From an uncultured bacterium (GTDB lineage Bacteria; Pseudomonadota; Gammaproteobacteria; Burkholderiales; Burkholderiaceae_E), in NCBI GenBank assembly GCA_903866395.1, contig CAIPNM010000054.1, positions 1 to 35,277 of the forward strand: a stretch of DNA of 35,277 nt. The letters are read 5' to 3'. Both the position numbers and the translations under genes were made by a program. The notes under the pieces were generated by a model. That model did no database searches, was not told the origin of the DNA, and saw only the letters and a program-made list of their open reading frames with translations. Of this stretch, positions 28,137 to 34,878 are shown in pieces. Numbering within the stretch: the first letter of the stretch is position 1; each line of letters begins with the position of its first letter.

Positions 28137-28141
28137 ATATA

Positions 28142-28172
28142 CATTAAATGAATAAATTAATGATTATTAATG
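28142..28172. promoter_or_regulatory. LysR operator candidate: inverted and repeated ATTAATG elements
   Basis: CATTAA at 28142-28147 is inverted relative to TTAATG at 28157-28162, and ATTAATG occurs twice (28156-28162 and 28166-28172) exactly 10 bp apart, one helical turn. The stretch is AT-rich within GC-rich DNA and sits between the lysR start and the -35 element of the divergent promoter, the normal place for LysR binding. Confidence 0.6.
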
Positions 28173-28174
28173 CA

Positions 28175-28203
28175 TTGGACAGCATGATTATGCCCGCTAA
28201 GAA
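28175..28203 (+). promoter_or_regulatory. Sigma-70-type promoter for the Bug-M20-hydroxylase operon
   Basis: TTGGAC (28175-28180), a 17-base spacer and TAAGAA (28198-28203) make a good match to the -35/-10 pattern. Transcription would begin near 28210, about 65 bases before the Bug ATG. The -35 box abuts the repeated ATTAATG elements, fitting activation by the divergent LysR protein. Confidence 0.5.
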
Positions 28204-32772: not shown

Positions 32773-34151
32773 ACCGCCGCATCATCGCTTTGCGGGTGAA
32801 TGGACGTGAGTGTGTTCTGGAAGTTGACGCAGCTGAGCCTCTGGTTGAGACGCTGCGCGAACGCTGTCAGCTCACCGGCACACACCAGGGCTGCGATACC
32901 GCACAGTGCGGTGCGTGCACGGTGTTGGTGAACGGTTCGCCGATCAAGAGCTGTAATCGGCTCACCGAACAGAGTGACGGCTGCGATGTTCTGACCATTG
33001 AAGGGCTTGGGGGAGAGGGCGGTGAGCTGCACCTCATCCAGCAGGCGTTCAGTCGTCACCATGCCCTGCAGTGCGGGTTTTGCACGCCTGGTTTCGTGAT
33101 GCGCGCGCTTGCAATGGTGGACGAGGCGGTTGAGCCTGAACCGATCGCGGTTCGCAAAGCCCTGAGTGGCAATCTTTGCCGCTGCACGGGTTACGAAGGC
33201 ATTGTGCAGGCGATTTGCGAGGCCCTGCCGGTTCTCCGTCGATCACGCGCTGCGGATCGTCCGGTTGAAGGAGCGTCGATGGATCGCCCTGACCGCGGGC
33301 GGCCGACTTCGCCTTGCGTCCCGGATACGAATCGGGTGTCAGATATGCCGCTGTGGGGCCCGATTCACTGCCGACCGAGTTCAACTGCCTCGGCGATTGA
33401 GAGCCTGAAAGCGAGTCCGGAGGCGCGGCCGCTGGCAGGTGGCCAGAGCCTGCTTCCGGCGATGCGTCTTGGTCTCGCGGCGCCCACTCATTTGATTGAC
33501 CTGCAGGATATCGACGAACTTCGCACCCTTCGTGCCGGGGCCGATCATCTTCTCGTTGGCGCGATGGTGCCGCATGCACGCGTGGCCGCGGACCGAGGTG
33601 TGATGGAAGGTTGGCCGATGCTTGCGGCGCTGGCCGGCGGGATCGCCGACCAGCAGGTGCGCTCGGTCGGTACGCTTGGTGGCTCGCTCGCGAATAACGA
33701 TCCTGCCGCCTGCTGGCCAGCGGGTGTGCTTGCGAGCGGCGCGACCGTGGTGACCACACGATCCCGAATCCCGGCAGATGAATTTTTCAAGGGGATCTTC
33801 GCGACTGCACTTGCGCCGGATGAATTGATCCTTGGCGTTGAGTTCCCGCGACCGATCGCCGGCCGCTATCTGAAGTTTGAACAACCAGCGTCGCGCTTTG
33901 CGCTGGTGGGGGTGGCAGTGGTGCGCCTGCCGGGATCGGTGCGCGTCGCGCTCACCGGGCTGGGCGCGGGCGTGTGCCGTTGGCCGGAGGCGGAGGCGCG
34001 TCTCGGCGAGCGCTTTCATCGCGCGGCGCTGGCGGGCCTCACACTGGATCCGGCGTGTGCGTACGGCGATCTTCATTCGCCAGCCGAATATCGGGCGCAT
34101 ATCGCGGCCGTGCTGCTCAAGCGCGCGGTGGGCGAACTATCGCCCGGCTGA
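32769..34151 (+). CDS. Fused [2Fe-2S] and FAD-binding subunit of the molybdenum hydroxylase
   Basis: A 460-residue fusion of two normally separate subunits. Residues 1-160 are the iron-sulfur subunit, with C42, C47, C50, C62 and the second cluster C102, C105, C137, C139 (CGFC ... CRC). A linker of about 30 polar residues (161-190) leads to the FAD subunit of the CoxM type, with ARPLAGGQSLLPAM (about 219-232) and SVGTLGGSLANNDPAA, where the flavin pyrophosphate binds. Electrons from the molybdenum site would pass through two clusters to FAD. The ATG overlaps the large-subunit stop. The FAD part ends slightly short (about 270 residues after the linker), close to the usual length. Confidence 0.93.
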   Translation: MNRRIIALRVNGRECVLEVDAAEPLVETLRERCQLTGTHQGCDTAQCGACTVLVNGSPIKSCNRLTEQSDGCDVLTIEGLGGEGGELHLIQQAFSRHHALQCGFCTPGFVMRALAMVDEAVEPEPIAVRKALSGNLCRCTGYEGIVQAICEALPVLRRSRAADRPVEGASMDRPDRGRPTSPCVPDTNRVSDMPLWGPIHCRPSSTASAIESLKASPEARPLAGGQSLLPAMRLGLAAPTHLIDLQDIDELRTLRAGADHLLVGAMVPHARVAADRGVMEGWPMLAALAGGIADQQVRSVGTLGGSLANNDPAACWPAGVLASGATVVTTRSRIPADEFFKGIFATALAPDELILGVEFPRPIAGRYLKFEQPASRFALVGVAVVRLPGSVRVALTGLGAGVCRWPEAEARLGERFHRAALAGLTLDPACAYGDLHSPAEYRAHIAAVLLKRAVGELSPG

Positions 34152-34263
34152 GTGGTGCCTCGATGTGCGGAACCGCCTGCCATCGCACGGTCCCGTTACA
34201 GGTATTGTTATGAGGTAGGCGTCGTTCGGACGCGCCCGGATCGTTATCGAGAGGACCCCCACC

Positions 34264-34878
34264 ATGACCGAACCTGTAGCCGACTCGGCCCGGATTGCCG
34301 ACACGCTTCGTTATGGCGCGCCCATCAGTTTAGGAGGATGGTTGGAGACGCATGCCCAGCGGCTCAAGCCCCCGGTGGGTAACCAGCAAATCTGGCCTGA
34401 CTCCGATCTCATCTGCACGGTCGTGGGTGGGCCGAATCAGCGAACTGATTTTCATGATGACCCCTTCGAGGAATACTTCCATCAGTTTCGCGGCACCGCG
34501 TCGGTGCTGGTGGCTGACCGAGGCAAGATCGAGCGAATTCACCTGCGAGAGGGCGACGTATTTCTGCTTCCCGCGCATGTCCGGCATTCGCCGCAGCGCC
34601 CCGAAGCGGGGAGTCTCTGCACGGTGATTGAACGGAGCCGCCCGGCAGGCATCATCGATGCCTTCGAGTGGTTCTGCTCGAACTGTGGGCATCTGGTCAT
34701 GCGCCTTGAGATTCAGCTGCAGAGCATTGTTGAGGATCTGCCCAAGACCTATGCCCGCTTCTACGACTCCTCGGAGGCGGCGCGCACCTGCAGCGAATGC
34801 GGGACGGTTCATCCGGGGCGCGACTGGGCGACGTGGCTACAGGGGTGTGCGAGGACGTGGCCGCAAACTGCCCTTTGA
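34264..34878 (+). CDS. nbaC: 3-hydroxyanthranilate 3,4-dioxygenase
   Basis: A 204-residue cupin-fold extradiol dioxygenase. With a 13-residue N-terminal extension every functional residue of the bacterial enzyme is kept: iron ligands H64, E70 and H108, substrate residues R60, R112 and E123, and the C-terminal rubredoxin-like iron site C138/C141 (CSNC) and C176/C179 (CSEC). It should cleave 3-hydroxyanthranilate to 2-amino-3-carboxymuconate semialdehyde, as in tryptophan (kynurenine) and 2-nitrobenzoate catabolism. Start supported by GAGAGGA eight bases upstream. It follows the molybdenum hydroxylase by 112 bases; none of the kynurenine-pathway genes or the downstream decarboxylase is in the window, so the source of its substrate here is open. 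Confidence 0.95.

Follow-up and report, generated by a model that had tools for sequence, protein, structure and literature searches.

What does a molybdenum (Mo) hydroxylase do beside 3-hydroxyanthranilate 3,4-dioxygenase (3HAO)? The question is raised by an island at one end of the window studied here, a whole contig (G000:C54) of 35,277 bases belonging to a 5.0 Mb draft genome of 518 contigs. The contig stops 399 bases past the end of the 3HAO gene, and the genes downstream of it lie beyond view. As its sequence strongly implies, 3HAO opens 3-hydroxyanthranilate (3HAA) to 2-amino-3-carboxymuconate semialdehyde (ACMS), a branch point that leads to full oxidation, to NAD precursors or to neuroactive quinolinate.

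The original prediction, that the Mo enzyme and 3HAO belong together, is borne out by a comparison of 3HAO loci: of 71 non-redundant loci, 22 have a Mo gene of the window's family in the neighbourhood of 3HAO, mostly without kynurenine or nitrobenzoate genes nearby. The same prediction placed the Mo enzyme upstream of 3HAA, a role that it may still have. On balance, the evidence tips slightly towards an island for the uptake and ring cleavage of 3HAA that also provides the Mo enzyme of a lower pathway independent of ACMSD. The comparison suggests that the Mo enzyme and 3HAO are part of a so far undescribed second route of 3HAA breakdown.

Alternative partners of 3HAO

The gene for ACMSD, the enzyme that classically follows 3HAO, and that for a DHDPS-family aldolase were never found together beside 3HAO. 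Among the 71 loci, a DHDPS-family aldolase was detected in 31, ACMSD in 24 and both in none (Fisher p 1.5e-8), and the 43 loci of the unselected sample, i.e. the part not chosen by similarity, give the same picture (ACMSD 15, DHDPS 17, both 0; p = 5.6e-5). Aspartate dehydrogenase (AspDH) accompanies the aldolase, with 17 of the 31 DHDPS loci carrying its gene versus one of the 40 remaining loci. Genome-wide, ACMSD of at least 50% identity was found in one of 26 genomes of the DHDPS, Mo or SSADH type (G768, in two pieces) versus three of four controls. In the window's own draft genome, the matches to ACMSD are at most 30% identical, versus 50–69% over the full length in three control genomes. 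The best 3HAO tree, in which many branches are weak, has five label changes between DHDPS and ACMSD and five between Mo and SSADH.

The loci come from a 3HAO pattern scan of an 84,980-species genome collection (21 loci), from an order-wide draw (25 of 399 genomes with a match) and a phylum-wide draw (26 of 398), the window's own genome being counted in both draws, and from plasmids. Neighbourhoods were obtained for all 24 other 3HAO genomes of the order-wide draw, for 20 of the 25 others of the phylum-wide draw (G428, G490, G665, G681 and G710 were omitted), and for 9 of 77 plasmid records in one set and 7 of 47 in a second, the latter having been picked by a DHDPS query, a source of bias in the DHDPS/ACMSD count. 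At 97% 3HAO identity, nine rows were removed as redundant, among them the window itself as a near-copy of locus L002; L080 and L022 were excluded because their 3HAO is incomplete, and L020 was excluded from the 3HAO tree. Genes were scored within 11 kb, on contigs of which some are short, at tblastn identity thresholds of 50% (DHDPS, SSADH), 40% (M20), 35% (Mo) and 33% (ACMSD, AspDH). Three 3HAO matches contain one in-frame stop each (L073, L074 and L137; TGA in genomes G059 and G300, TAA in G695), which may reflect a pseudogene, a sequencing error or recoding.

A structure model of the aldolase, built from the L017 protein with nine relatives (mean pLDDT 84.3), displays the DHDPS/NAL fold (Z 33.4, rmsd 2.2, 290 residues aligned). 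The model places the protein in the superfamily only and does not indicate its reaction. The lysine aligned with the Schiff-base lysine of DapA is retained, and the L017 aldolase is 24% identical to the DapA-like protein of the window's own genome.

Position of the Mo gene in the clusters

The 31 DHDPS loci carry a Mo large subunit (17 loci), an SSADH-like gene (9), an MMSDH-like gene (2) or none of these that was seen (3). Within 11 kb, no locus has both Mo and SSADH (17 versus 9, p 9.9e-5), nor both Mo and either dehydrogenase (17 versus 11, p 4.3e-6). The Mo gene stands where SSADH does in clusters that are otherwise alike: the order MoL-DHDPS-3HAO-ABC-abhydrolase-AspDH of L029 compares with abhydrolase-SSADH-DHDPS-3HAO-ABC-AspDH in L122, and L083 likewise resembles L122 in its remaining genes. 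In Variovorax, the Mo form (L010) and the SSADH forms (L011, L012) fall within one well-supported clade of the 3HAO tree. The SSADH proteins compared (L011, L080, L082, L086) are 62–71% identical across alpha- and betaproteobacteria. This swap of the Mo gene with a semialdehyde dehydrogenase gene points to the Mo enzyme acting at a step after ring cleavage.

The Mo enzyme might also stand outside the pathway and travel with 3HAO only, as an oxidase of aldehydes in general or of purines. This would agree with the 11 DHDPS+Mo loci in which no gene for an iron-sulfur (FeS) or FAD subunit was seen, and with the curated NCBIfam substrate models, none of which is reached at its cut-off. It is, however, very unlikely: going upstream from DHDPS, the first scored gene met is the Mo gene, on the same strand, in each of the 17 loci, and the large subunits of 16 of them are 44–60% identical to that of the window, that of L016 being a fragment. 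Judged by sequence, the Mo enzymes beside 3HAO are a coherent subfamily with phylum-wide loci. A more distant case is L062 (4019-15102): the Mo large subunit next to 3HAO there is 37% identical and lacks the RGAGRPE motif, two Rieske/VanA-like genes are neighbours as well, and DHDPS is not matched in that stretch; perhaps another 3HAO-linked pathway is encoded there.

Islands of the window type and their relatives

Islands of the window type were found on three contigs of metagenome-assembled genomes (L002, L003 and L004). The whole block is found in L003 and L004, which retain LysR, Bug, M20, Mo and 3HAO. The closest relative, L002 (3HAO 98% identical), keeps Mo, FeS-FAD and 3HAO and has lost Bug, M20 and most of LysR; this loss (L002 6156-6251) could also be an assembly fault.

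These relatives bear directly on the model in which the Mo enzyme hydroxylates an N-heterocyclic or N-acylated acid and M20 hydrolysis yields 3HAA or an analogue. Both chemistries are known for Mo hydroxylases and M20 enzymes, the genes are close together on the same strand, and the supply of 3HAA is otherwise unexplained, as no KMO was found. Nevertheless, M20 is absent from L002 and occurs in only two of the 22 other Mo-3HAO loci (L003 and L004), not being found in the other 20; the Mo gene is exchanged for an aldehyde dehydrogenase gene; and it also adjoins TDO-like and kynU genes in L055. The upstream model therefore appears rather unlikely. Because M20 is not conserved, its benzoxazole or N-acyl logic is left unsupported, and no evidence for a benzoxazole-type substrate was found.

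The island does share a lineage with clusters of the DHDPS type. Among the 14 loci L005-L018, whose records are mostly of Burkholderiales and include Rhodoferax, Variovorax and Hydrogenophaga, a DHDPS-family gene lies near 3HAO in 13, a homologous Mo subunit is present in 11, and M20 is matched in none. The 3HAO clade of the window is sister to L005/L006 (SH-aLRT 92), which have the order Mo-DHDPS-FeS-FAD-3HAO and Mo large subunits 59–60% identical to that of the window. As the sister loci bear DHDPS and no DHDPS-family aldolase lies beside 3HAO in the window, the lineage of the window has probably lost the gene from its cluster.

A DHDPS-family homologue persists elsewhere in the window's genome (C252:4301-5257), 58% identical to the L005 copy and 62% to that of L029, and the L002 genome also carries a homologue of it (95%). 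AspDH is encoded in all four genomes, in the window's own on another contig (C41). Around the own DHDPS homologue (locus L089, 805-7307), open reading frames named by eye resemble shikimate dehydrogenase, alpha-hydroxy-acid dehydrogenase, enoyl-CoA hydratase and acyl-CoA synthetase; a second use of the aldolase subfamily at this locus is possible.

Substrate of the dioxygenase and origin of 3HAA

The 3HAO of the window passes the equivalog profiles for the enzyme, and its residues 47, 51, 57, 95, 99 and 110 are all identical to those of the C. metallidurans protein. We take H51, E57 and H95 to be the iron ligands and R47, R99 and E110 to be substrate residues. All four classes compared (Mo, SSADH, DHDPS and ACMSD) share these six residues, the sole exception being a gap in a single ACMSD row.

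Some aldolase clusters contain candidate genes for the production of 3HAA. In two clusters of the DHDPS type from Rhizobium and Sinorhizobium (L081/L082), genes for a DUF4863 protein, an NAD(P)H oxidoreductase and a flavin reductase have homologues in a C. pauculus cluster whose gene order, porin aside, matches that of the onb 2-nitrobenzoate cluster, in which OnbA and OnbB make 3HAA (PMC5817917). Gene order would equate the L081/L082 families with these two proteins. Kynureninase (kynU) genes lie in the clusters of Shinella and Ensifer (L085 and L086). In L055, the order Mo-DHDPS-FeS-FAD-3HAO adjoins AspDH, an alpha/beta hydrolase, a TDO-like gene (297.7 bits, under the cut-off of 390.7) and kynureninase (303.9 bits, over that of 246.4). 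Since 2-nitrobenzoate-type or kynureninase genes thus occur in some of these clusters, 3HAA is the likely ring-cleavage substrate of the DHDPS/Mo clusters and the best guess at present.

The window's genome encodes a kynureninase (C163) and, as a draft, gives no match to TDO at E 1e-15. Its best KMO match reaches 55.7 bits and 30% identity; the best in the 26 genomes of the DHDPS, Mo or SSADH type reaches 77.8 bits and 33%, and a distant KMO in control G697 reaches 312 bits. The query (from L134) is presumably a KMO, judging by a KMO-type motif and by its kynU neighbour. As two ACMSD-type controls (G207 and G355) also lack KMO, its absence is no marker of the DHDPS/Mo-type clusters. The absence of KMO would be accounted for if the Mo enzyme were an anthranilate 3-hydroxylase; this idea was set aside, because genomes of the SSADH type lack KMO too and the chemistry would be unusual.

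A putative ACMSD-independent route

We tentatively propose, at somewhat less than even confidence, a widespread ACMSD-free route of 3HAA breakdown that combines aldehyde oxidation by an SSADH-like or a dedicated Mo enzyme with a split into C4 and C3 parts by a new DHDPS subfamily, the nitrogen being retained as aspartate. After ring opening, the Mo enzyme would oxidise an aldehyde, either ACMS itself or a C3 aldehyde derived from it, and would thereby take the job of the SSADH-like aldehyde dehydrogenase of sister clusters, in a slot common to SSADH, MMSDH and Mo. ACMS is a C7 enamine, and its hydration could be followed by retro-aldol cleavage by the DHDPS-family class I aldolase, which would cut the C7 chain into oxaloacetate or iminosuccinate (C4) and a malonate-semialdehyde-type C3 part. 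These two steps may occur in either order, the aldehyde being oxidised before or after the split. Aspartate dehydrogenase acts on the C4 imine (iminosuccinate) and could fix the amino group as aspartate, the C3 part going to malonate or acetyl-CoA. M20 and Bug would be accessory, probably serving substrate uptake or release.

A different role in the same slot has to be weighed. ACMS is known to form quinolinate, and after such self-closure the Mo enzyme could act as a quinolinate 6-hydroxylase giving 6-hydroxyquinolinate, the lactam of 2-amino-3-carboxymuconate, which M20 or an alpha/beta hydrolase might open to the very product of the aldehyde dehydrogenase. Hydroxylation next to a ring nitrogen is normal chemistry for Mo hydroxylases, and the scheme agrees with both the Mo/aldehyde dehydrogenase swap and the M20 gene of the window. 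It is nonetheless unlikely, given that, on general chemical grounds, hydrolysis of a pyridone is difficult, that 20 of the 22 Mo loci have no M20 found, and that abhydrolase genes are also seen in L122, an SSADH cluster, and next to the TDO-like gene of L055. The literature on dipicolinate 3-hydroxylation and on quinolinate pathways held nothing useful among the matches listed.

Several observations weigh against the preferred reading of the Mo enzyme as part of the ACMSD-independent route. All steps after ring opening are inferred from the genes. The locus counts are phylogenetically dependent: four supported independent pairs gave two results as expected, two without difference and none opposite (sign test p 0.5). 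The unselected sample comprises 9 loci with Mo, 3 with SSADH, none that combines the two and 5 that lack them (p = 0.08). Neither with the tree taken into account nor in this sample by itself does the Mo/SSADH exclusion reach significance. L084 has SSADH plus another Mo-family gene, about 30% identical, more than 11 kb from 3HAO. The active-site tyrosine and the TTGE motif that we take to be those of DapA are replaced in the aldolase. The window-type locus itself is without DHDPS and AspDH; the own DHDPS-family copy lies in a different gene context, on a contig with other catabolic-looking open reading frames, and no close DHDPS orthologue turned up anywhere in the genomes of L003 and L004 (33%, and a fragment of 36%). 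Furthermore, no KMO was found in the window's genome or in the 25 others of the DHDPS, Mo or SSADH type that were searched.

The lack of electron-transfer subunits belongs to the same list. In the stretches examined, no FeS/FAD gene was found in 11 of the 17 DHDPS+Mo loci (L029, L083, L124, L125, L130, L132, L056, L061, L015, L018 and L016), an oddity in a redox enzyme. The contig of L016 is short, and in several cases the large-subunit gene sits close to the edge of the stretch. Two annotated plasmids likewise show no FeS/FAD gene beside the Mo large subunit. In eight genomes without an adjacent FeS gene, the best genome-wide identity to the L055 FeS subunit is 45–57% (45% in G575 and G597, 48% in G693, 51% in G175, 52% in G052, 53% in G317, 54% in G624 and 57% in G147), compared with 47–52% in SSADH-type genomes and 56–67% in FeS-bearing clusters, and G147 may hold a FeS partner in trans. 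An apparently orphan Mo large subunit either borrows its partners or has a role other than ordinary oxidation, and the ACMSD-free route would require many of them to use borrowed electron-transfer subunits or none. Because of these missing genes and the missing source of 3HAA, confidence in the role proposed for the island is moderate.

If bacteria do have a second way of disposing of ACMS without ACMSD, the catabolism of tryptophan, kynurenine and nitrobenzoate would have to be annotated differently in Burkholderiales, in Rhizobiales and on Roseobacter-group plasmids. Three groups of proteins that now bear generic names, namely a subfamily of DHDPS, one of Mo enzymes and an aspartate dehydrogenase, would also acquire defined reactions.

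Genes and other features of the window

The five plus-strand genes and the divergent LysR gene described originally were all found in place (Table 1), and the originally noted lack of kynurenine and nitrobenzoate genes agrees with profile searches of the main open reading frames of the window, downstream genes lying beyond the contig end.

Table 1. Features of the 3HAO island in the window
Feature	Position	Strand	Evidence and relatives
LysR-type regulator, divergent	27216..28136	-	Pfam HTH_1 and LysR_substrate; L003 88%, L004 73%, truncated in L002
Divergent intergenic region	28137..28275	.	AT-rich inverted element ATTAATGATTATTAAT; one weak promoter-like site
Bug/TctC periplasmic binding protein, likely substrate capture	28276..29262	+	PF03401 170.9 bits; absent in L002
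M20 amidohydrolase, accessory	29270..30514	+	TIGR01891 350.3 bits vs cut-off 153.75; PF01546, PF07687
Xanthine-oxidase-family molybdopterin large subunit	30616..32772 (30616 = best start)	+	PF20256/PF02738/PF01315; GVGEAG and IYRGAGRPE motifs
Fused [2Fe-2S]-FAD subunit	32769..34151 (32769 = likely start, from translation)	+	PF01799, PF00111, PF00941
3HAO	34264..34878	+	PRK13264 242.7 vs cut-off 220; TIGR03037 222.7 vs 145.95

The Mo enzyme has the MoCo, 2Fe-2S and FAD domains and the catalytic Glu motif of the xanthine-oxidase family, and the start of its FeS-FAD subunit overlaps the stop of the large subunit. It scores below the curated cut-offs for CO dehydrogenase (464.5/950), xanthine dehydrogenase (296.3/780) and glyceraldehyde dehydrogenase (519.1/790), and neither its large nor its small subunits reach any curated NCBIfam substrate model. 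The nearest solved relatives of the M20 protein are YxeP, an M20 peptidase, a plant IAA-amino acid hydrolase and an aminoacylase. A plausible operator and promoter were also described originally, and this claim is weak: the AT-rich inverted element between LysR and Bug is only partly retained in L003 and L004, and the promoter scan gave one promoter-like match versus 0.8 expected in shuffles, i.e. chance level.

To the left of LysR (24126-27219), MFS transporter, CaiB-type CoA-transferase and YicG-like genes are syntenic in L002 and L004, the last two in L003 too. Positions 1198-7470 encode the FeS and large subunits of a second Mo hydroxylase and, after them, two FAD monooxygenases, one of which passes the cut-off for 4-hydroxybenzoate 3-monooxygenase (547.1 vs 538.7). 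The contig end (34890-35277) carries a direct repeat of about 110 bases with an inverted-looking stretch between the copies, both of which are matched by L002 over 79 bases or more.

Comparison with known systems

An ACMSD-independent route of 3HAA breakdown was not found described in the titles and abstract openings of the open-access literature among the matches listed. The onb/nba 2-nitrobenzoate pathway includes OnbC (3HAO), OnbD (ACMSD) and OnbE (PMC5817917). The clusters studied here have 3HAO in common with it, and L081/L082 contain homologues of its presumed nitroreductase and mutase genes; these two loci differ in that no ACMSD was found near and that 3HAO has AspDH, SSADH and an aldolase of the DHDPS family as neighbours, whereas the cluster of the window has none of the onb upstream genes and has the Mo enzyme. 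With the kynurenine pathway (TDO, formamidase, KMO, kynureninase, 3HAO), they share 3HAO, the TDO-like gene and kynU beside the Mo cluster of L055, and kynU in the window's own genome, but not KMO, which was not found in the window's genome or the 25 others of the DHDPS, Mo or SSADH type.

Quinoline 2-oxidoreductase, CO dehydrogenase and related enzymes of the xanthine-oxidase family (1t3q, 8uem, 7dqx) resemble the Mo enzyme in family, catalytic Glu motif and MoCo/FeS/FAD set. The enzyme of the window differs by its fused FeS and FAD subunits, by scores under all the curated cut-offs shown and by its place beside 3HAO, and in its relatives the large subunit often has no electron-transfer neighbours. 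Finally, the aldolase shares its fold and the position of the Schiff-base lysine with the lyases and hydratase-aldolases of the DHDPS/NAL superfamily, and differs from them, in not keeping the tyrosine and TTGE of DapA, as a separate subfamily tied to 3HAO.

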